DNA of 23,878 bases, taken from positions 1 to 23,878 of the IMG/VR virus record IMGVR_UViG_3300033155_000801, one strand, 5' to 3'. Under the pieces are notes generated by a model, which saw nothing but the letters and a program-made list of their open reading frames with translations, made no database searches and was not told the origin of the DNA. Positions within the stretch are counted from its first letter, which is position 1. Every line of letters begins with the position of its first letter. The stretch comes from a virus. Shown here piece by piece: positions 4,556 through 19,901 of this stretch. The position numbers and the translations under genes were made by a program.

Positions 4556-5386
4556 CTATCCACCTGTTTTATTTTTTTCTAAGAATGATGGAGGAACTTG
4601 ATGACTAGGTATATTTTTTAAAAATCCACCAACATCAAAACCTGACCTATCAGCTTTGCCTTTAACTTCTGCAGCGTAAGCTCTCTCATGAGATGTCATC
4701 CTTGAACTTGTACGTTGTGCAGCTCTGCCACCACCTATACCACGCATTCCGTTAACAATTTCTCCTATAGCTATTGAAACTTTTGGAGCTTCTACTGTTA
4801 ATTCTGCTAATGTTTCAGTTAAAGATTTTAGACCAGTTTCTGCACTATCTGAAGTATCCATCAGTGCAGCCATTTGTAAGTTTAATAATAATGTTGTACC
4901 TGAAGCATCATCAAATATCACTCCAGTTTCTTTTAGTAAATCGTTAGCTTTCTGAACCTCTGGATTAGTTTGTTTTAATCCTCCCAGAACTTCTTCTCCG
5001 CCTCTACCTGTAATATAATTTTCTTGACCAACTCCCATCCATTTATTTATAAGATCTTTATTACCGCCAGTCAATCCACCAAAACCCATACCACCAGCAA
5101 CCTGGCTTGGTGTTTGGCCTGATTGTGCAGCTATTTGTCCAGTTATTGCTCCAACTAATGCTGCCGCAAAAGTAAGTCCAGTACCTACTCCAAAGAATTT
5201 TCCAATAGAACCAAGTTTCCCAAAAATACCGGGAAGAAATCTAATCATAGCATCATCAGCACGAGAACGCTTACTAGCTTGAGTAGCTGTTTCTCCTACT
5301 GCTCCTGCTGCTCCGCCAGCTCCTGCTGCACCAGCACCACCTACAGGTTCCAGTATTAATTTTGCTTTAATAGTTGGTTCTACCAT
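4556..5386 (-). CDS. Tape measure protein, short (276 aa)
   Basis: It follows the frameshifting chaperone gene directly and overlaps it by 7 nt, the invariant place of tape-measure genes in siphoviruses and myoviruses. Residues 16-33 are a Gly/Ala-rich low-complexity stretch and 61-88 form a hydrophobic helix (GVGTGLTFAAALVGAITG), the membrane-insertion type segment common in tape measures. Further Gly-rich turns (GGMGFGGLTGG) and helical segments follow (about 140-215). ATG at 5386 is preceded by GGGGA. At 276 residues it is far shorter than typical tape measures (often 600-2000). Using about 0.15 nm per residue, it would set a tail of roughly 40 nm. An alternative is that it is a tail-associated protein and the tape measure is atypical, but no other candidate exists nearby. 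Confidence 0.75.
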   Translation of the reverse strand: MVEPTIKAKLILEPVGGAGAAGAGGAAGAVGETATQASKRSRADDAMIRFLPGIFGKLGSIGKFFGVGTGLTFAAALVGAITGQIAAQSGQTPSQVAGGMGFGGLTGGNKDLINKWMGVGQENYITGRGGEEVLGGLKQTNPEVQKANDLLKETGVIFDDASGTTLLLNLQMAALMDTSDSAETGLKSLTETLAELTVEAPKVSIAIGEIVNGMRGIGGGRAAQRTSSRMTSHERAYAAEVKGKADRSGFDVGGFLKNIPSHQVPPSFLEKNKTGG

Positions 5387-5888
5387 TTTGTCCCCATATT
5401 CTTTTTACTTTCAATATCAAATTCTTGTTTTTTAATCAAACAATTATCGAAATGTTGCCAAACTTCTAACTCATAAAATGGAGTTTCATCTAAAGGCAAA
5501 TATTGCAGACCATAATTTTTAATATATGATCTATCTCTCAACGAGATAATTACTCTTGGATTATTAATTTTTGTGTTAGTGTTCCAAATGAAAGCATTAA
5601 TCTCTAGTTTATCTTTTTTTTTAAGGTGTTTAATTCATTGAATAATATATCTATAGGTTCTCCTACTTCAATATATTCTACTTCATCTAATCCTTCAATA
5701 GTTGTAGGAAATCCTTCAGGAGATTTTACTATTGTCATCAAAATTTGATGTTGTCTCTGTAATCCTTTATCAAGTCTATCATTAATAAAACTTTTCTCCA
5801 ATGATTTTCTTATAACTCCCCAAACTAAACTTTTCATAACGACTTCTTCTTCTTTATCGTTCCATATTATTTTTGTTGATTTTTCCAT
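5380..5888 (-). CDS. Tail assembly chaperone, GT form made by -1 ribosomal frameshift (169 aa)
   Basis: Reading frame 0 from 5888 to codon 92 (AAG ending at 5613), then slipping back one base, joins 92 residues of G to 77 residues (starting DKLEINAFIW) and ends at TAG 5380-5382 inside the tape-measure start. The -1 frame has a TGA at 5635-5637 and no ATG until its last few codons, so the extension cannot be made alone. The slip must occur in the 28 nt between that TGA and the frame-0 stop, exactly where A AAA AAG lies. Lambda G/GT and its relatives use the same arrangement, with the T part binding the tail tube protein. The T part here (PRVIISLRDRSYIKNYGLQ, LDETPFYELEVWQHFDN) fills a stretch that would otherwise be a 217-nt gap. 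A miscounted A homopolymer is the main alternative. Confidence 0.8.
5604..5888 (-). CDS. Tail assembly chaperone, G form (94 aa)
   Basis: A 94-residue acidic/helical protein upstream of the tape measure, with ATG at 5888 preceded by GGTGA. By position it equals lambda gpG: a chaperone that coats the tape measure during tail assembly and is not part of the mature virion. The sequence (VKSPEGFPTTIEGLDEVE, then IDILFNELNTL) shows no enzyme motif. Its last codons run over nine consecutive A residues and end at TAG 5604-5606. A -1 slip there gives the longer GT form, annotated separately. Normal termination yields this form, expected to be the major product. Confidence 0.8.
   Translation of the reverse strand: MEKSTKIIWNDKEEEVVMKSLVWGVIRKSLEKSFINDRLDKGLQRQHQILMTIVKSPEGFPTTIEGLDEVEYIEVGEPIDILFNELNTLKKKIN
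5613..5619 (-). promoter_or_regulatory. -1 frameshift slippery site A AAA AAG
   Basis: On the minus strand frame 0 reads ACC TTA AAA AAA AAG ATA AAC TAG. The heptamer A AAA AAG sits on codons 91-92 of the chaperone and is the most slippery class known in bacteria; the A AAA AAA one codon earlier also fits. I saw only a weak 4-bp hairpin (TCTC/GAGA, around 5545-5553) downstream and no upstream Shine-Dalgarno-like stimulator that I would rely on. Confidence 0.75.
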
Positions 5889-5915: not shown

Positions 5916-6926
5916 TTATGTTGCAGTACTCCAAGTAATAGGTTTTAATCCTGTATCACTTTTACCGCTCAACGCAATACCACTAACTGTAATCTCTGTT
6001 GTACCGTCACCAACTGCCACCGGATGTGACCAATTAGTTAAAAAACAATCATCTAATTGTAATAATACTGTTCTGTCTCCAGCCACTGCTCCTTCGCTTA
6101 TTTCTAATACTAGATCTAAAGCTGTAGGATCTAATGTTGTAATAGGTGCATCAGCACTAGAACTACCAAAGAAATAACTGATTAATTCTGAACCATCAAT
6201 AGTGTTAGCTGCACTGTTAGTATCATAAACTAATGTATAAGTAAAATTGTATCTTCTGTTTCCAGTTTGCCAATAACTTGCAAGCCTGGAATTAATATCA
6301 TAAATTAAAGCTGATCCTTCATTATTAACAGACCATGAGAATGATCTTATATTAATACTATCAGACCCATTCTTTAATGTAGCAGAATGTGCCATGAACG
6401 GTGTTTGTGTTCCATAAGCATAACCCACAGAGCTACCAGTACTACGTAAAACGCTAGCTCCAGTCATACCAATAGAAAATGATACGGGACTACCACGTGT
6501 TCCTTCGAATGATAATGATTGCCATACACATCCAGTAACGTCAAAAATTTGTCCGCTACCATCAGAATTACCAAGCTCTACAGTAGAAGTAACCCTACCA
6601 GTTGAATAATCAATTGAATCGCTCTCAGTAATAGTACCATCGTCGTCGTCTCCTGTAGAAGTACCAAACATTCTAGCGAACTTTGAAAAACTTACTACTT
6701 CACCGTTGATAGAAACACCAGCAGTGAATAGTCCTTCCTTTACGTTAGATAAATTAAGTCCTTCCCCAATACCTTGACTTGTTTGTAAACTATTATCAAA
6801 AGTAAGCGATGCACTGTTAACTTTTCCCAGCCATTTCGCTGTAGTGATCGATGCACCAGTCCTAAAACCAGTCTCATCATCAGCATGAATTGCGCTATTT
6901 GCGCCGTTAAATATTACTCTAGCCAT
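5916..6926 (-). CDS. Major tail tube protein (336 aa)
   Basis: A beta-rich, Ser/Gly/Thr-rich 336-residue protein with a two-domain look, in the standard slot between tail terminator and chaperone G. Strand motifs such as SASLTFDNSLQ, GLFTAGVSINGEVVSF, QSLSFEGTRGSPVSFSIGMTG and RRYNFTYTLVYDT fit the tube fold shared by gpV-like proteins. The C-terminus TEITVSGIALSGKSDTGLKP is typical of tube proteins. I place the start at ATG 6926 (MARVIF), preceded by GAGGA that overlaps the upstream stop TGA at 6937-6939. A longer upstream reading to 7010 would run 74 nt into the previous gene and has no ribosome site. The absence of a sheath gene next to it argues for a siphovirus-like tail. Confidence 0.72.
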   Translation of the reverse strand: MARVIFNGANSAIHADDETGFRTGASITTAKWLGKVNSASLTFDNSLQTSQGIGEGLNLSNVKEGLFTAGVSINGEVVSFSKFARMFGTSTGDDDDGTITESDSIDYSTGRVTSTVELGNSDGSGQIFDVTGCVWQSLSFEGTRGSPVSFSIGMTGASVLRSTGSSVGYAYGTQTPFMAHSATLKNGSDSINIRSFSWSVNNEGSALIYDINSRLASYWQTGNRRYNFTYTLVYDTNSAANTIDGSELISYFFGSSSADAPITTLDPTALDLVLEISEGAVAGDRTVLLQLDDCFLTNWSHPVAVGDGTTEITVSGIALSGKSDTGLKPITWSTAT

Positions 6927-6936
6927 TTTTTTATCC

Positions 6937-7689
6937 TCAGATTCCTTCACCAGCATTAAACATTTTACATTGGTATTCCATTGTTTGCCTGTAAAGACCA
7001 AGATCTTCATCTAATGCTTGCGGTATATTATTAATTTTTCTTGGATCAAATAATCCAACAAGGTATGTTCTCCAATCGCTTCTCATAGCTTTTGCTATTT
7101 CTCGTGATATGTATTGAACACATTTCTTTCCTTCCATGAATACTACATAAGTTGATGTTATTGCTTGAGTATCATAAGATGCAACATCTGCAGCACTAAA
7201 GTTTAAGTTTCCTGTACTCCTACTCCATTCAACTGTACCTGCTGCTAAACTTCCTGGAGCAGTAAAATCAGCATCAGTATCTTTAGCTGTCAATGTACCA
7301 AAAGCAGAACCTGCATGTTTAATATTAGTTATAGTGTTTGGCACTGTTTCTAATGTTATTCTGTCAGTATTAATTGTTGAAGCGACTATACCAACTGCTT
7401 CATCAGTAGTAGTCACATTAAAAGTTATTCCTTTCTTTGTCATAACATCTATTTGAAAAGTTAAAGTATCTAATTGATCGTCATCGTTTACTCCTAAAGG
7501 ATCAGCACTTTCTGATAATAAAGTTACTCCAACTCTAGGCCAATCACTATCTCCTATATTTTTAATTCTTGGATAATCTGGAAAAACGAATGGATTGCCA
7601 GCGCCAGAACGCGTAGTATTAATATCAGTAACCCGTAGTCTTAAGAAATTGCTAATTATTCTATCTGGTTCTATCTTTATTTGCGTCAT
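6937..7689 (-). CDS. Putative tail terminator/completion protein with inserted beta domain (250 aa)
   Basis: First gene of the tail unit. The outer parts (about 1-85 and 185-250) resemble tail terminator proteins: an early WPRVGVTLLSES strand, a TFQIDVMTKKG strand, a helix MEGKKCVQYISREIAKAMRSDW and a final strand region. About 90 residues are inserted between them (about 90-180), ending in STGNLNFSAADVASYDTQAI, a beta-hairpin pattern seen in other proteins of this window. ATG at 7689 has AGGTGAGG just upstream (about 7694-7701), so unlike the first genes of other units it has a leader of about 50 nt. The terminator caps the tube and joins it to the head. The assignment rests on order and strand pattern. 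Confidence 0.6.
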   Translation of the reverse strand: MTQIKIEPDRIISNFLRLRVTDINTTRSGAGNPFVFPDYPRIKNIGDSDWPRVGVTLLSESADPLGVNDDDQLDTLTFQIDVMTKKGITFNVTTTDEAVGIVASTINTDRITLETVPNTITNIKHAGSAFGTLTAKDTDADFTAPGSLAAGTVEWSRSTGNLNFSAADVASYDTQAITSTYVVFMEGKKCVQYISREIAKAMRSDWRTYLVGLFDPRKINNIPQALDEDLGLYRQTMEYQCKMFNAGEGI

Positions 7690-7789: not shown

Positions 7790-8278
7790 CTATCTAATCA
7801 TTTTAAAAGAATTATTTATAGCCCTAGCCATTAATTGATCATTGTACCATACCTTACGGAAAGGAGCTCTTGGTTCTGTACCATTCTCCTGGATACTTTT
7901 AGCTAGAGCGAAATATTCGTTATTATCAAACCCATGACGTGAAGCCCACGCTTTAAGTTCTTCAGTTAACGGCATTTTTCTGGTAGGGTTTGGTCCACTA
8001 CTACTTTCTCCGAACGGATCAACTACTCCCTTCTTTCGTCCAGCAGTCCCATACTCAATATATTTAGCGTACGGAGCATCAGAAGATACGATCAGTTCAT
8101 TATTTATCACTTCAATGTTAAGGCTACGTTTGAACTGTCCAGTATCAACGAGACGTTCTTTATTAATTTGTTGAACAATCTCGTTCTCTAACTGAAAACC
8201 TATCGAAGTTAACAACTTTTCTGAGAACTCGTCCCAATTAGTTATAAGATATGTTTGACCATTAAATTTTATTTCCAT
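7790..8278 (-). CDS. HK97 gp10-like head-tail connector / tail completion protein (162 aa)
   Basis: Matches the HK97 gp10-like family pattern: an N-terminal helical region, then VDTGQFKRSLNIEV, APYAKYIEYGTAGR, and a C-terminal RAPFRKVW, in the usual order and length (family about 110-170). These proteins act at the head-tail junction in siphoviruses. I choose ATG at 8278 (MEIKFNG), which overlaps the last codons of the HNH gene by 17 nt; the upstream ATG at 8323 would add 15 residues (MLYFFVNNV) not expected in the family. No Shine-Dalgarno is visible, so it may be translated by coupling to the HNH gene. The overlap shows that the HNH gene was fitted tightly here. Confidence 0.82.
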   Translation of the reverse strand: MEIKFNGQTYLITNWDEFSEKLLTSIGFQLENEIVQQINKERLVDTGQFKRSLNIEVINNELIVSSDAPYAKYIEYGTAGRKKGVVDPFGESSSGPNPTRKMPLTEELKAWASRHGFDNNEYFALAKSIQENGTEPRAPFRKVWYNDQLMARAINNSFKMIR

Positions 8279-8768
8279 TTTTATGTATTTTAACATGACA
8301 TTGTTTACAAAGAAATACAACATTCATAGGCTCGTCATAATCCGGATGGTGTTTTTCTATTGCTTTTTCTTGTTTACATATTACACATAATCCCGATATT
8401 TTTATAGCTCTTGACATATTTCTAGCATACATTTTTTCAGGATATTTTTCTCGCATAACTTTAGCACCTTTTATTTTTAGCTCTTTAACCCTCTCATGAT
8501 TAACTAACTCCCAGTTTCTTGTTCTTAATAATTCTTGTTCTTTATGCTCTTTATAATATTTTTTCCCATATTCACTTATTTTTTCTTTATTTTCCTGTCT
8601 ATATTTTTTTTTATATTCTTTTTTATATTCTCTTATATATTCTTTATTTTTTTCTCGCCATAATTTCATTACTTCTTGATTTTTCTCTCTATTTCTTTTA
8701 ACTCTAGCTTTTATGTGTTCTTTATTCTTTAGATAATATTGTCTTTTTTTTTCTTTATCGTAAACCAT
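8262..8768 (-). CDS. HNH endonuclease with Lys/Glu-rich helical N-terminus (168 aa)
   Basis: The C-terminal 45 residues form a zinc-bound HNH motif: C128-x2-C131, HHPDYDEP with H140/H141, and LCKQCH with C154-x2-C157-H158, then H162. Such proteins cut DNA, mostly as free-standing homing-type endonucleases in phages. Residues 1-100 are a highly charged helical region with repeated KEY/KKY/EKN units, probably DNA-binding. It interrupts the head-completion genes, has its own TATA box (8791-8799) and is visibly richer in A/T homopolymers than its neighbours, all signs of acquired DNA. The spacing of TATA centre to ATG (about 27 nt) indicates a leaderless transcript. Packaging-associated HNH nucleases exist, but they usually sit near terminase. 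Confidence 0.78.
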   Translation of the reverse strand: MVYDKEKKRQYYLKNKEHIKARVKRNREKNQEVMKLWREKNKEYIREYKKEYKKKYRQENKEKISEYGKKYYKEHKEQELLRTRNWELVNHERVKELKIKGAKVMREKYPEKMYARNMSRAIKISGLCVICKQEKAIEKHHPDYDEPMNVVFLCKQCHVKIHKNGNKI

Positions 8769-10569: not shown

Positions 10570-11466
10570 TTATTTTTTACAAGTTAAACCTTTATACTTC
10601 TGTCCTTTCATTTCGCCGTTAACATCTTGCAACGTACGTTCCGCGTCTATTATTGTAGCGTTTAAAGCGTCCATATACTTGTCTAATACTGCGCCAATTT
10701 TATGTTTATTATTAATATAAAAACTGCTCTGACAAATCTGAGTAATTCTTTTATATGTGTCTTCAACTTTGTCCATGTGCCATTCATTGAATTTTTCTAT
10801 AAACATTTTAGGAATTCCTTGATTTTCACATTTCTTGTTATACTCAGTGATTGCTCTGTCCAAATCTTCCAAGATTTTAATTTCTAATTCTTCTATTGAA
10901 AGTTTGTTAATATTATTTAATTGTGATAATGAAAGTAAATGAATCTTCCATGTGCTTAATTTTACTTGCAAAAAGTCTGAAATAACTTCTCTACGGAAAT
11001 CACTTTGTATCTGTAAATGAGTGATCTTAAACTTTAACCAGTAGTCAATACGTGAATGTACCGGATGTTTCATTAGATCAAAATTTCTTCTTTTCAACTT
11101 TTTATCAATTAATGCTATCAAATATTTATGTCCAGTGCTTATAACTAAATACATTATATAAAAAAATAATGCTACTATCACTGTTACTGCGCCTTGTTCT
11201 CTTACCATGTCAACATAATAAGCTAAGCCGTCTTTAGGACTATTCGATACTATACTATTTTCTTGTGACCAACCAGACGAACATAATTTGTTGCCATCAA
11301 TAGTATTGATGCATTTCCCGTTAGCTAAACTATAATAACTACTAAAACTGTCACACTCTGCAACCATGTTTCTTTCTTCGCAGTAGTACTCAGCAGCAGT
11401 AGAAAAATGTACTAGGAGCAAAAATAATACAAAAAAAGTTAATAAAAAAAGTTTTTTATCTTTCAT
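10570..11466 (-). CDS. Membrane protein with signal peptide, Cys ectodomain and helical cytosolic domain (298 aa)
   Basis: Residues 1-25 are a signal peptide (KDKK, then a Leu/Phe core, cleavage likely after FSTAA). The short outside part (26-90) has four Cys (C29, C38, C52, C62), enough for two disulphides. A single membrane helix spans about 92-111 (AVTVIVALFFYIMYLVIST), followed by KKLKRR, which places the C-terminal ~180 residues in the cytosol. That part is helical (for example IEELEIKILEDLDRAITEY). It overlaps the LamG gene before it as ATGA (11463-11466). I do not recognise a family. It could anchor assembly at the membrane, block superinfection, or aid egress. A host-membrane protein amid virion genes is unusual. 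Confidence 0.75.
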   Translation of the reverse strand: MKDKKLFLLTFFVLFLLLVHFSTAAEYYCEERNMVAECDSFSSYYSLANGKCINTIDGNKLCSSGWSQENSIVSNSPKDGLAYYVDMVREQGAVTVIVALFFYIMYLVISTGHKYLIALIDKKLKRRNFDLMKHPVHSRIDYWLKFKITHLQIQSDFRREVISDFLQVKLSTWKIHLLSLSQLNNINKLSIEELEIKILEDLDRAITEYNKKCENQGIPKMFIEKFNEWHMDKVEDTYKRITQICQSSFYINNKHKIGAVLDKYMDALNATIIDAERTLQDVNGEMKGQKYKGLTCKK

Positions 11467-13175
11467 TTTTTAAGTAAACCTTTGTCTCCGTTTAAAGCTC
11501 CTAATGAAATTTTATCTCCAGCATCTAAATCAAAAGTCATATAATCTGATATTGTATGTGTATTCTCCGTAAATGGATTTGAACCACTACCTCCAGCAAC
11601 ACTTACTAAAACATCATTCATATATAAAGTACCTACACCAGCGTCTGTCCTAGTAAAATTAAATTTATTAAAAACGTTTATAGGCACATATCCATCAGCC
11701 GCTAATAAACTAGTTCCAGCACCAGCACCATTTGTAATTGTATGAACTCTCATACCTTCGCTTGAAGTTATTTCAAACAAATAACCGTCTTGTCCTGAGG
11801 AATTCCATGCACCATTTACGTCTGCTATTAACATTATTAATACACCAGAAGCATCAGGTTTTTTCAAATACCATTCAAACTCTCCATAAGCAGAATTGGT
11901 TGGTGATTCATGAAAATAACTTGTAGGTATACTAAATATGCCAGCAGTTACACATTCAATAGCTTTTACATCTTGTCCATCAATAGTATCATCTATAACC
12001 TTAAATGAACCACTTTGCACTTCAAACGGTGTATTCTCAATAAACCCGCTAGTTATAGTTCTTTCATTTGCTAAAGCTCCAAAGTCTGTTTTGAATTGTA
12101 CATCAAGATATGTTTTACCTATCTCCTGAACAAGAATGTCATCAAACTCTGCATAATCCCCAACAGCTAATTTATAAATATCAAAATATGTATTCTCAGC
12201 AGTAGCTGTAAATTCAAAATATTGCCAATCTGTAGAGGTTGTTCCAGTCCAGCTCGCAGAACTTGTTACAGAGCAATAAGGAGTTGCTACACCATCACTT
12301 CTAGCATAACCAGTAACATGATAAGTTTTCCCAACAGTCAGTACCTGTTGTATTGCTGAAGCATATGAAGAAGCTTCGAATACTCTAATACATTGAGTTC
12401 CGCCACCAAGGGAACTAGTTTGTTTTGAAAGTATTGCTGAACTAATAGGAGTCCAATCTCCTACCCCAGCAGTCTCCATATCACCATCAGCTATTTCATT
12501 TGCCTTAGGATTACCAGGTTCATTATCTGCCTTAGCTCTCCCTATTGTCTTTTTAGGAAATTTAATTGCTTCCAGTTCTGCTGTTAGTTGAGCAACTTCT
12601 GATTCTGTTAATACACGATTAACAATTAATTGATAATATGCTTTTCTTCTATTATCAGCACCATATTCCGTGAATAGTGTTCCATTAAAAGTTAAATCGT
12701 AAGCACTTTTTGCACTAATATCGTCAGGTGTTCCATATTCTAAACCATCTTGAAAATATGTTAAATCTCCATCTCTATCGGCAGTTACAGCAATATTCAT
12801 TTTTTTACCTAAAGCATAATCTGTACCTACATCAGTATAAGAAGTTCCATCAATTCTAACTATAACTGCACCAAGATAAATATGTATACCTCTATTAGTT
12901 GCAGAAGCACCACTTAAAGTACGTAATTGTTCACCACTAACATTATCACTATAAACTTCAGCACTAACAATTTGAGTAAAATCGCCTGTTCCTATAGCTA
13001 CGTTAGCACAGGTAAACTGCGAAGTAGTACCCATTACAGCTCCTGTATTATTTAAATTAATAGTTCCACTTTTAGCGATTGTATAATTCCCTGACTTATC
13101 TACAAAAGTACCATCCCTGAAATCTGCATATAATATTATTTCACTGTCATCTATTGTTTTAAATATACCGCTCAT
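11463..13175 (-). CDS. LamG-CBM-LamG adhesin, second paralogue (570 aa)
   Basis: Three beta domains in a row. Residues 1-200 are LamG/concanavalin-like (FVDKSGNYTIAKSG, GRFQ-like FQDGLEYGTPDD, and the closing YYQLIVNRVLTESEVAQL helix typical of LamG-3). Residues about 225-350 are a CBM4/9-like sandwich (ADGDMETAGVGDWTPISS, LTVGKTYHVTGYARSDG, DWQYFEFTATAENTY). Residues about 355-570 form a second lectin-like domain (YGEFEWYLKKPDASG, INVFNKFNFTRTDAGVGTLY). It is a clear paralogue of the gene before it, with the same domain order. ATG 13175 overlaps that gene's stop as ATGA and carries GGTGA. Role inferred: glycan-binding virion surface protein for host S-layer or cell-surface sugars. Confidence 0.75.
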   Translation of the reverse strand: MSGIFKTIDDSEIILYADFRDGTFVDKSGNYTIAKSGTINLNNTGAVMGTTSQFTCANVAIGTGDFTQIVSAEVYSDNVSGEQLRTLSGASATNRGIHIYLGAVIVRIDGTSYTDVGTDYALGKKMNIAVTADRDGDLTYFQDGLEYGTPDDISAKSAYDLTFNGTLFTEYGADNRRKAYYQLIVNRVLTESEVAQLTAELEAIKFPKKTIGRAKADNEPGNPKANEIADGDMETAGVGDWTPISSAILSKQTSSLGGGTQCIRVFEASSYASAIQQVLTVGKTYHVTGYARSDGVATPYCSVTSSASWTGTTSTDWQYFEFTATAENTYFDIYKLAVGDYAEFDDILVQEIGKTYLDVQFKTDFGALANERTITSGFIENTPFEVQSGSFKVIDDTIDGQDVKAIECVTAGIFSIPTSYFHESPTNSAYGEFEWYLKKPDASGVLIMLIADVNGAWNSSGQDGYLFEITSSEGMRVHTITNGAGAGTSLLAADGYVPINVFNKFNFTRTDAGVGTLYMNDVLVSVAGGSGSNPFTENTHTISDYMTFDLDAGDKISLGALNGDKGLLKK

Positions 13176-14920
13176 TTTTTGTTCACCTTCTTCATTAATC
13201 TTGCGTGCAGGTCTTTAACTTGCATTGGAGTAAGTGCTTGTGAAAATAATTCTCCAGTTCCCATTTTACCTTTATAATAATAAGAAATTTCTCTACCAAG
13301 AGTTATATTTGAATCTAGATCTGTTAGATTACCAGAATAAGCAGTATTTGTATAAACCAATTTACCTCCTAAGAATATTTTTACATTTTCTCCATCCCAA
13401 CTAAAGCCAGCAGTAGTGGTTAATCCATCCTGTATACGAATATTGGAATGAGAATCTCTTCTTACCCCGTCAATATTAAGTATTACAGACATATCATCAG
13501 TATTCCCAGCAGTGTTATATTTAATTATAAATAAATGTTTTTCTGTGGAGGTCTTTGATACTGCAAAAATTGAAGGGTAAGATTGACTTAATGTTTCAGG
13601 AGTAACTAAAGCGATATAACTAATAGCATTATTAGTATAACAATCAGCCATTGCACTTTTATCTATATTGAAGTATTGAGCTGTGCCGTCAACATCATAT
13701 CCATGACGTTCTGTAAGTTTTGTAGGGAAAGTACCTGCTGTGCTTCCATCTCCTAATTGAGCATGATTACCATTTCCTGAAACATCCAATGTATGAGGTT
13801 TTACATCTGTAACTGTAACTTCATTAAATTCTACATAACCTGATGAACCAGTAGACCCTAAGAAAAATGTAGTGCTTGTTTTAGCTTCTAATACCACATC
13901 AAAATATTGCCAACTAGTAGAATTAGTACCTATCCATAAAGACGCTACTCCACCCATCAATACTTTTGGAATTTCTGAACCATCACTTCTTGTATAACCA
14001 GTAACTCTATAAGTTTTCCCAATTGTTAAAATTGCTTGACTAGCCCAATAAGTAGCACCTGTTGCTGTAACTCTTAATGCTTGTGTTCCACCACCTAATG
14101 TTGAAGAAACTTTAGAAAGAGTTGAATCAACAGCAGCCCAATCACCTGTTCCAACAGCCTCCATATCTCCATCAACCAATAACTGAGTAGGGTCGTCATA
14201 ACTAGGGTCATGCTGTGCCATTCCCATAGGAAGGTTTAAATCTGCTTTATCTTCATAATTAAAAACGTCGTTATTATAATAGTCTAATATTTCTTGAGCT
14301 GTTAATGCTTCTTTAAATATCCTTGCATCATTACCCTGTCCTTCAAAAAATGCACTAGGAGATTCACTAGTTAATTGACTACCGATAGCGATACTTGATT
14401 TTGATTGATACAATTCTGTAATAGAGTCATCTTTGTCTTTATCAACTGAAGTATCTTTAACACCATCAACATATAAATTAAGAGTAGTCCCATTCCAAAC
14501 AAAACCTATCAAGTGTTCTTCACCATCTACTATTATTATTGATGAATCGTATTTTTTAGAGTAACCAGTACCTGCCTCTGTAATGTCAGCTAAGTAGACA
14601 ACCATTTTATTACTTACTAATCTAATCAACCAACCTCTTTCATTTGCACCAGTATCATAATGACTAAATATTGAAGATGAAGCAGTATTTGCTATTTTTA
14701 CTTTAATAAATACAGATAATTCGTTATTACTAACTTCATTATGTTCTGCATATTTTAAAGAATCATTAGCTCCATCAAAAGTAGCACCATTATTTATAAC
14801 TGGAGCACCTGTAATAGTTCCACCATTATTCACAACTTCCTCAGTATTCCTAAACTTCTCAACGAACCGTAATCCTCTTTCTCTCTCCGCTCCTAAACTA
14901 TTTTTAGTAAGTAATGTCAT
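13172..14920 (-). CDS. LamG-CBM-LamG adhesin, first paralogue (582 aa)
   Basis: Residues 1-225 are a LamG domain (NNELSVFIKVKIANT, IGFVWNGTTLNLYVDGVKD, DARIFKEALTAQEILDYYNND). Residues about 245-380 are a CBM4/9-like domain (DGDMEAVGTGDWAAVD, LTIGKTYRVTGYTRSDGSE, SWQYFDVVLEAKTST). Residues about 395-582 are a second LamG (ISYIALVTPETLSQ, TTAGFSWDGENVKIFLGGKL, ELFSQALTPMQVKDLHARL). The CBM domains of the two paralogues align almost without gaps. GGGAG precedes ATG 14920. Like its neighbour it has no signal peptide or membrane helix, so it is most likely a virion component and not a secreted protein. Its place in the head module suggests a head or neck fibre. Confidence 0.78.
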   Translation of the reverse strand: MTLLTKNSLGAERERGLRFVEKFRNTEEVVNNGGTITGAPVINNGATFDGANDSLKYAEHNEVSNNELSVFIKVKIANTASSSIFSHYDTGANERGWLIRLVSNKMVVYLADITEAGTGYSKKYDSSIIIVDGEEHLIGFVWNGTTLNLYVDGVKDTSVDKDKDDSITELYQSKSSIAIGSQLTSESPSAFFEGQGNDARIFKEALTAQEILDYYNNDVFNYEDKADLNLPMGMAQHDPSYDDPTQLLVDGDMEAVGTGDWAAVDSTLSKVSSTLGGGTQALRVTATGATYWASQAILTIGKTYRVTGYTRSDGSEIPKVLMGGVASLWIGTNSTSWQYFDVVLEAKTSTTFFLGSTGSSGYVEFNEVTVTDVKPHTLDVSGNGNHAQLGDGSTAGTFPTKLTERHGYDVDGTAQYFNIDKSAMADCYTNNAISYIALVTPETLSQSYPSIFAVSKTSTEKHLFIIKYNTAGNTDDMSVILNIDGVRRDSHSNIRIQDGLTTTAGFSWDGENVKIFLGGKLVYTNTAYSGNLTDLDSNITLGREISYYYKGKMGTGELFSQALTPMQVKDLHARLMKKVNKK

Positions 14921-14953
14921 TTTTATTTATTCTCCCTTATTCTTTATGATATT

Positions 14954-16549
14954 TTATGATACTTTACTTATATTAAAAGCACCTTCTGATATTGTCACGT
15001 TTCCTGTTCCTGTAGTGTTTCTGACTGCAAAAAATAAATGGTCATCTTTTTCCAAGAAAACAACTCCTGTTCCTGCCAATGCTCCAACATCCCCACCTGC
15101 TGAGAATTTTCTCTGTATTTGTGTTCCTGATACTGTTGATGTATTTTTGAATACAACAAAATCAAATACTTGGTTAACAGCCACTGATGATACAGAAAAT
15201 GAATAATCGACACGATAAGCTCCACGTCTTAATGGTACAATATGACTTCCATGATGCCAAGTTCCAGTATCCGCATTGGAACTCCAAGCTATATCATCAC
15301 AATCAAAAGTATCTGCATTGATAACTGTTATTTGAGTAACACCATCATGCGCAGCATCACCCATACCAGTTAATGTGACAAAATCACCACTAACTAAACC
15401 ATGATCAACATCAGTGCATCTTAAAACGCCACCGTTATCTGCCGTATTTGTTATAGCACCAGTTGAACCTTGATCAACATCTACATTACTCGAAGTTAAT
15501 CCTGTTGCCGGTGTACTAAAAGCATGCCATTCATTTTGAGTATCTATAGTGAAAGCTCCACCACCTGTAATTTGAACTTGTCCATATTCTTGTGAGTTTA
15601 CAAAATTTACTACTCCTGCTCCTGTTGTATTATTTGCAGCAGTTATAATATCTGAAATAGAATTTAATGTATCGCCTATTGCTACATCAGCTAAATAATT
15701 AGTAGCAAATCCTGTAACACTAAAAGTATTAGAGGATGAATTTATTATTCCATCGTTAGTATCTGTATCTATATCAAATATTTGTCCAATACCATTACCG
15801 GCACTAGTAACAGAAATAGAAGATCTAGTATCAAGTTTTAATATCCCAGTTCCTGTATGTTTGAAAACTGAAGCTGTCCCTGAATATGTAGCACTATTAG
15901 CGTTAAGTGATACTAATGCACCAATAACAGTAGCATTACCTGTAGACGAATCAGTATATATATTAATATCATCATCTGCGTCTGAAATATTAACTTGTAT
16001 ATTAGCCCTATCAATAGTAAATACCGAAGTATTTTCTTGTACTATTAAATTATGAGTATTTGAACCAGCATCTGTCCCAGTCATTGTATAAAAATAACCA
16101 CAATCAATAAAAGCTGTTGTTCCACTAGAAGATGTTGTCGAAATATTACCAGTTATTCCGTTAGTTGAAGATGTAACAAAAAGCCCACAATTATTAAATT
16201 GACAATAGCCACCTGCTGATGAATCAATAATTTTTGAACCATTAGCTGTAGGATTCATGTTAAAAAGTATATTCTCACATCTAACAAAAGTACTAGGAAT
16301 TGTAAGCAATGATCCAGACGTTCCTATCACTGAAAGACCGTTAGCAATACCAACACCATTCAAATTAACATAATTTTTTAATACAAGATTTTCTGTATAT
16401 TCTCCTGGATAAATTTCAATAGTATAGTACTTACTAGATGATGCATCAGTAATTGAGTCTATCGCTGACTGTATTGAAGTAAAATCTGCTCCAGATTTAG
16501 CTACAGTTACTGACTGCGCTGGGTTTAATACATTTGGTGGGTTTAACAT
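14954..16549 (-). CDS. Right-handed beta-helix spike with C1q/TNF-like C-terminal domain (531 aa)
   Basis: Residues 8-65 match the pectin-lyase/pectinesterase start (SVTVAKSGADFTSIQSAIDS, then YYTIEIYPGEYTENLVL and KNYVNLNGVG), opening a parallel beta-helix that continues to about 310 with repeated short strands and Asn/Ser turns. Residues about 345-531 look like a C1q/TNF-type jelly-roll (NEWHAFSTP, YRVDYSFSVSSVAVNQVFDFVVFK split by turns, LEKDDHLFFAVRN, ISEGAFNISKV), with a roughly 70-residue loop insert (about 360-430). The C1q/TNF fold commonly trimerises and binds receptors in spikes. No catalytic pectinesterase Asp pair is evident, so binding is more likely than cleavage. GGAGT in the end of the previous gene serves ATG 16549. 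Confidence 0.75.
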   Translation of the reverse strand: MLNPPNVLNPAQSVTVAKSGADFTSIQSAIDSITDASSSKYYTIEIYPGEYTENLVLKNYVNLNGVGIANGLSVIGTSGSLLTIPSTFVRCENILFNMNPTANGSKIIDSSAGGYCQFNNCGLFVTSSTNGITGNISTTSSSGTTAFIDCGYFYTMTGTDAGSNTHNLIVQENTSVFTIDRANIQVNISDADDDINIYTDSSTGNATVIGALVSLNANSATYSGTASVFKHTGTGILKLDTRSSISVTSAGNGIGQIFDIDTDTNDGIINSSSNTFSVTGFATNYLADVAIGDTLNSISDIITAANNTTGAGVVNFVNSQEYGQVQITGGGAFTIDTQNEWHAFSTPATGLTSSNVDVDQGSTGAITNTADNGGVLRCTDVDHGLVSGDFVTLTGMGDAAHDGVTQITVINADTFDCDDIAWSSNADTGTWHHGSHIVPLRRGAYRVDYSFSVSSVAVNQVFDFVVFKNTSTVSGTQIQRKFSAGGDVGALAGTGVVFLEKDDHLFFAVRNTTGTGNVTISEGAFNISKVS

Positions 16550-19264: not shown

Positions 19265-19582
19265 TTATACGAATACTCCAGTTGTTGCTCTTCCAACAAG
19301 CTCAACAACCCTAACTGCGTTTGAGTTAGCACTCTGAACTGTTATTGTTGCAACTCCAGCAGTTACTGAACAAGTAGCAATATCAGTAACGATAGTGCTT
19401 CCGCTTGTTGTATGAACCCAACTTCTAATAGTTAAAAGGCCTGTTGGTGAAATACCATAATCAGCCAATGTAACTGTAAAAGTATCATTCTCATCCGCAG
19501 TATTCGGTGTTTGAAAGATAACTGTTTTCAAATCACGGTTAGGAAATAATTCCCAACTTTTCAAAATACTTGTTGCTGTCAT
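19265..19582 (-). CDS. Small decoration/cement-like protein, copy 2 (105 aa)
   Basis: A tandem paralogue of the preceding gene: by my ungapped count 60 of 105 residues are identical, with the same ends (MTATSILKSWE ... GVFV). It begins at ATG 19582, only one base after the stop of copy 1; the reading to 19615 would run into copy 1. The sequence (DYGISPTGLLTIRSWVH, SVTAGVATITVQS, VRVVELVGRA) is a small beta-sandwich. Size and place after the capsid gene match decoration proteins such as lambda gpD-type caps, although the fold is not confirmed. Loops differ most at residues 83-90, so the copies may occupy different capsid sites. Confidence 0.7.
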   Translation of the reverse strand: MTATSILKSWELFPNRDLKTVIFQTPNTADENDTFTVTLADYGISPTGLLTIRSWVHTTSGSTIVTDIATCSVTAGVATITVQSANSNAVRVVELVGRATTGVFV

Positions 19583-19583
19583 T

Positions 19584-19901
19584 TTATACGAACACTCCAG
19601 GAGTTGATCTTCCAATAACTTGGACTACCCTCATGTCGTCATCAGTACCAGCTGCAATAGTTACAGTTAATACTCCTGAACTTACTGCGCATGTGTTTAA
19701 TTCTGTTGTTATAATACTACCATCAGCAGTATGAACCCAACTCTCAACAACTAATAAGCCTGTTGCTGAAATACCGTAATCAGTTAATGTGATTTCTAGT
19801 GTATTAGTTGCGTCCGCAGTATTCGGAGTAATAAATAACAAACTTTTAAGACCACTGTTAGGAGCAATTTCCCAACTTTTTAAAATACTTGTTGCTGTCA
19901 T
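19584..19901 (-). CDS. Small decoration/cement-like protein, copy 1 (105 aa)
   Basis: Immediately follows the major capsid gene (14 nt) with the best ribosome site in the window, AAGGAGGTAATG, which suggests very high expression. The 105 residues form a beta-rich protein (SLLFITPNTADATNTLEITL, DYGISATGLLVVESWVH, GVLTVTIAAG, MRVVQVIGRS) without Cys pairs, membrane helices or enzyme motifs. It is duplicated in the next gene. A capsid-stabilising decoration role is inferred from size, expression signal and place. The alternative is a head-completion protein, but those are made in small numbers and rarely duplicated. Confidence 0.7.
   Translation of the reverse strand: MTATSILKSWEIAPNSGLKSLLFITPNTADATNTLEITLTDYGISATGLLVVESWVHTADGSIITTELNTCAVSSGVLTVTIAAGTDDDMRVVQVIGRSTPGVFV

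Follow-up and report, generated by a model that had tools for sequence, protein, structure and literature searches.

A tail assembly chaperone locus of an uncultivated tailed virus, very likely decoded by −1 slippage on A_AAA_AAG

The stretch of DNA analysed here, referred to as the window, comprises 23,878 bases (IMG/VR virus record IMGVR_UViG_3300033155_000801, positions 1 to 23,878), and its minus strand carries portal/MuF, capsid, head-completion, tail-tube and tail genes; tRNA scans found no tRNA genes. The tail region contains the following features:

4556..5386, minus strand: tape-measure-like protein, 276 aa, assigned by position and by its N-terminus, MVEPTIKAKL, a motif common to relatives
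5383..5634, minus strand: T-like extension in the −1 frame, running from DKLE to its stop over 77 residues, with homologues in the T frames of L101, L053 and L057
5543..5604, minus strand: possible stimulatory hairpin, weak, starting 9 nt past the heptamer (−9.3 kcal/mol, z −2.6)
5604..5888, minus strand: tail assembly chaperone of G-like type, an ORF of 94 codons and a TAG stop, with a predicted structure that matches tail assembly chaperones
5613..5619, minus strand: slippery heptamer A_AAA_AAG, inside a run of nine A at 5614-5622; 11 relatives have a canonical heptamer in the stretch that permits a switch
5916..6929, minus strand: tail tube (Phage_tube_2), likely true start ATG 6929, assigned by Pfam match and by a family profile that matches the HHTV-2 tail tube gp46
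6937..7689, minus strand: conserved 250-aa protein 5' of the tube, in the position of a tail terminator, recognized by its conservation in relatives

G begins at the ATG at 5888-5886, 3' of an SD-like GGGTGA, and ends at the TAG at 5606-5604, giving a 94-aa product. The open part of the −1 frame starts at 5634, directly after a TGA at 5637-5635, and extends to a TAG at 5382-5380; it overlaps the ATG of the tape-measure gene (5386-5384) by 7 nt; within it there is no ATG, GTG or TTG before codon 31, and no SD. An initial annotation of this DNA had reported the 94-aa frame, the start-less −1 frame and the 7-nt overlap, and all three lie where it had placed them; the nine A residues that it had counted are likewise present in the record's sequence, and A_AAA_AAG falls within the sole stretch that permits a switch, namely that between the TGA of the −1 frame and the TAG of G. 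Computed translation through a −1 slip at this heptamer yields a fusion of 169 aa. The T region is AT-rich (26% G+C), and of 5000 dinucleotide shuffles only one left a −1 frame of this length open (P about 2e-4); an in-frame X_XXY_YYZ lies within a stretch of the permitted length at about 4-5% of coding positions.

Further observations concern the neighbouring genes. The tube protein scores above the Pfam cut-off for Phage_tube_2, and its listed ORF (5916-7010, minus strand) begins too early: homology starts near residue 28, and the true start is therefore probably ATG 6929. An HNH endonuclease (phrog_2340; 8262-8768, minus strand) lies between Hc1 and gp10-like genes that adjoin, with no HNH endonuclease between them, in the related locus L006, so that the window copy looks like a homing insertion. 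Large laminin-G/carbohydrate-binding-like adhesin genes occupy 11463-16549 (minus strand), between the capsid and head-completion genes, which is an unusual site for receptor-binding proteins, and two tandem paralogues of 105-116 aa (MTATSILKSWE...) lie downstream of the capsid gene at 19265-19901 (minus strand).

Scans with the window tube, G and T as single proteins found no relatives, nor did tblastn of the three in phage records; the family was opened by a capsid-protein scan, which gave 37 loci, and the 250-aa and 442-aa proteins added more, one duplicate being removed (G005, the same as G008 in the tail region). In nineteen distinct related loci, the tube gene is accompanied by G, by a T frame that overlaps G and by a gene resembling the tape measure; the product of this last gene starts, in most of the loci, with a version of M(V/A)EPTIKAKL, degenerate in the most distant ones. 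Thirteen of these relatives, together with the window, require a −1 switch and have, between tube and tape measure, G followed by an overlapping T that lacks a start; in the other six, T is in the +1 frame. The window T frame matches the T frames of L101 (best E 8e-12), L053 and L057, and the T frames of close pairs are under purifying selection as judged by Ka/Ks (the window's own pairs being saturated). In a further locus, L107 (8785-9778 and downstream), a single ORF lies between tube and tape measure, and a T frame is not evident.

With regard to the wider gene content of the relatives, three members encode TnpB-like RNA-guided nucleases, and the queuosine/preQ0 genes folE, queC, queD and queE are also found. 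Two loci (L085:8096-10771 and L083:4227-6884) encode related 890-aa proteins that appear by eye to be primase-helicase-like, with a SGGKGIHIHIYF-like motif; a weak, sub-threshold MCM match was seen in one of the two only.

An X_XXY_YYZ heptamer is present in the permitted stretch of 12 of the 14 −1 loci, as against 1.06 expected from the coding background (P 3e-13, relatedness ignored); in an earlier set of nine records, with lineages collapsed, the enrichment had a P value of 1e-3. The sites are of six kinds: A_AAA_AAG (the window and L110), A_AAA_AAA (L054, L065 and L091), A_AAA_AAC (L059 and L101), A_AAA_AAT (L111), G_GGA_AAA (L055, L060 and L061) and C_CCA_AAA (L112). The two remaining loci, L053 and L056, have no canonical heptamer in the permitted stretch; in both, GGG codons immediately precede the stop. 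The initial annotation had suggested comparing related genomes for conservation of both the A run and the −1 frame: the layout and the −1 switch are indeed kept in 13 relatives, whereas the heptamers vary and several loci have no long homopolymer. This same observation bears on the idea that the run in the window was miscounted during sequencing or assembly and that G and T are truly one gene in this virus. The run is a homopolymer in a metagenomic contig, and one extra A fuses the frames; however, an identically placed break, with varying heptamers, recurs in the 13 other loci, and we regard such an error as highly improbable. It had been proposed that either eight or ten A residues would bring the two frames into one: this holds for ten, but with eight a stop follows after 92 codons, and it is seven that would also fuse them.

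The RNA 3' of the slip sites folds more than the coding background (mean z of −2.05 versus −0.21). The clearest hairpin is that of L101 (13 bp, z −4.9), with further ones in L059 (z −4.5) and L112 (z −2.9); additionally, L055, L060 and L061 share a 9-bp stem that shows one compensatory change, a covariation that, involving three sequences only, is suggestive. The candidate hairpin of the window is not robust, its z of −2.6 dropping to −0.5 when a wider stretch is folded. These structures, and the lengths of the homopolymers, are also pertinent to an alternative in which it is the RNA polymerase, not the ribosome, that slips on the nine A residues, aligning G and T in part of the mRNA. The runs in the window (A9), L054 (A11), L065 (A9) and L111 (a long A run) are long enough for this. 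Against it, relatives with G_GGA_AAA, C_CCA_AAA or just six A (L059 and L101) have runs that are too short, the hairpins of the relatives sit at ribosomal spacing, and runs of 9-10 A inside other window genes have no evident second frame; polymerase slippage is thus improbable. Ribosomal −1 slippage, as the initial annotation had suggested, is supported by the layout kept in the relatives, the heptamer enrichment and the downstream hairpins.

The predicted structure of G (pLDDT 93.5) has as its best fold match in the PDB the XkdN-like chaperone YqbN (PDB code: 3klu; prob 0.97, E 0.05, TM 0.57), and its viral fold matches include the annotated tail assembly chaperones (TACs) of Bacillus phage Gemini, HHTV-2 (gp47) and HCTV-1. 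Searches of PHROGs and Pfam gave no match for the window G, T or tape measure, and the sequence profiles of G and T found nothing relevant in the PDB; against HHTV-2, the same profiles rank gp47 and gp48 first, not significantly. No curated chaperone family matches the window G, and weak, sub-threshold matches to Phage_TAC_7/TAC_5 occur among the relatives; such families are very divergent, and a match is useful rather than defining. The locus nevertheless displays the hallmarks of G/GT: two overlapping frames between tube and tape measure, a start-less T, a slippery site kept in relatives and a predicted chaperone fold. Layout conservation and the fold match therefore bear out the chaperone identity first proposed for this locus, and G is very probably a tail assembly chaperone of the lambda G/GT type, as judged from its modelled structure.

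Overall, we conclude that this tailed virus very likely makes two tail assembly chaperones, G and GT, from the locus, GT arising by a −1 slip on A_AAA_AAG; the slippage, its rate and the roles of G and T are what we infer. Most ribosomes would terminate at the TAG at 5606-5604 to give G, and a minority would slip back one base on the heptamer and continue in the −1 frame to give GT. If lambda is a guide, the tape-measure protein would be bound both by G and by the G portion of GT, and tail-tube subunits would be recruited by the T portion.

The six relatives with T in the +1 frame show that fusion by a −1 slip is not the only layout in the family. In L057, L063 and L064, an SD-led ATG lies inside the overlap (background 0.07-0.12 each), and the sites in L062 (TTT_CTC) and L104 (TTT_CGA) are of the TTT_C type; L108 is assigned to neither layout. 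An ATG in a +1 overlap was set aside as evidence of internal initiation by itself, given a background of 0.3-0.8, only an ATG with an SD being unusual. A +1 site of the UUU_C type has been proposed for the HF1-group viruses (PMC7230728), and a +1 shift of this type has been shown in influenza A virus (PMC3498833). The three SD-led loci, in which T seems to start from an internal ATG, so that fusion is not universal in the family, and the two separately annotated chaperone genes of HHTV-2 lend some credence to T being a separate protein in the window too, translated by re-initiation or from a start of its own, with no frameshifting. The lack of start codons and of an SD at the beginning of the window T argues against this, most −1 relatives similarly having no start codon near the overlap, and we consider a separately initiated T very unlikely here. 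Ribosomal slippage is retained as the reading for the window.

The window T is homologous to that of L057 even though the frame relation differs, and thus the protein has been retained through a change of frame relation. In the p442 tree, the decoding modes are scattered among branches; because these branches are weak and tail modules may be exchanged, we do not claim a number of decoding switches. It is an evenly balanced proposition that, within one family of probably archaeal viruses, a homologous T is joined to G, or produced alongside it, by three routes that can replace one another: a −1 slip (with varied heptamers and hairpins), a +1 shift on UUU_C and SD-led internal initiation. If so, selection would preserve both G and T, while on archaeal ribosomes the means of decoding them would change rapidly.

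The host is probably archaeal, as the initial annotation had supposed from the sequence, an assignment that is supported rather than proven. The capsid matches HHTV-2 alone among 50,697 phage records, and the tube profile likewise matches HHTV-2 gp46; moreover, an ERCC4 nuclease is encoded by 8 of 32 relatives, and the ERCC4 control matches only the four archaea among 14 genomes, whereas DnaB is found in none of the 32. No ERCC4 was seen in the window, which holds the structural part only. Magroviruses of marine archaea also encode an ERCC4 nuclease (PMC10160649). Weak MCM matches, being below cut-off, were set aside as archaeal evidence. A bacterial host, for which the frameshift would simply be the ordinary bacteriophage one, is the less probable option, in spite of the TerL of the capsid relative L010 being 50% identical to that of Flavobacterium phage 11b, of portal matches to bacteriophages and of a search for an archaeal provirus that found none; it would affect the host claim only.

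Experimentally confirmed programmed frameshifting in archaea amounts to very few cases. The family offers about twenty natural sites around homologous proteins, comprising six −1 heptamer kinds, two UUU_C +1 sites and three SD-led starts; these, some with clear downstream hairpins, make up a panel for testing bacterial and eukaryotic slip rules on archaeal ribosomes. It is, in effect, a natural experiment in which the T extension is apparently made in at least three different ways.

Compared with lambda G/GT, the window has the same position between tube and tape measure, the same overlapping start-less T and, by prediction, the same −1 slip at an X_XXY_YYZ near the end of G, the lambda site being G_GGA_AAG; it differs in that sequence similarity is undetectable and that its tape measure is only 276 aa. 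YqbN, the best PDB match of G, is a bacterial (Bacillus) protein with 11% identity. In HHTV-2 (Saparoviridae), gp46-gp49 comprise tube, two chaperones and a short tape measure in identical order, the tube is detectably homologous and the predicted fold of G matches. The HHTV-2 chaperones are, however, annotated as two separate genes; the second, placed in the −1 frame, is given a GTG start, and a canonical heptamer is absent. At 11041-11100 of HHTV-2 (L171, NC_021340.1), the frame of gp48, −1 relative to gp47, is open back into gp47, and the annotated GTG start may, on this sequence, hide a frameshift.

The tail-chaperone frameshift is conserved in long-tailed dsDNA phages (Xu, Hendrix and Duda 2004, as cited in PMC7230728; reviewed in PMC5009743), and its counterpart in archaeal viruses has been predicted since 2013 (PMC5009743, PMC8211752, PMC7911831, PMC7230728). 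Among haloarchaeal tailed viruses, −1 shifts are predicted for HVTV-1, HCTV-1/2/5 and Hardycor1 (G_GGA_AAT in the last), and +1 shifts for HSTV-2 and the HF1 group (PMC5009743, PMC8211752, PMC7230728, PMC7911831); the predicted HCTV-2 site is A_AAA_AAC (PMC5009743, PMC8211752, PMC7911831, PMC7230728), and archaeal ribosomes slip in vitro on A_AAA_AAT of Saccharolobus fucA1 (PMC8211752). The novelty is accordingly smaller than the initial annotation had implied: the G/GT frameshift is standard in long-tailed phages and already predicted, in both directions, in haloarchaeal viruses, to which the window adds a well-supported further case. The present family differs from the haloarchaeal viruses in being uncultivated and, in the window, AT-rich, and the new part is that −1, +1 and probable internal-start layouts occur together within it.
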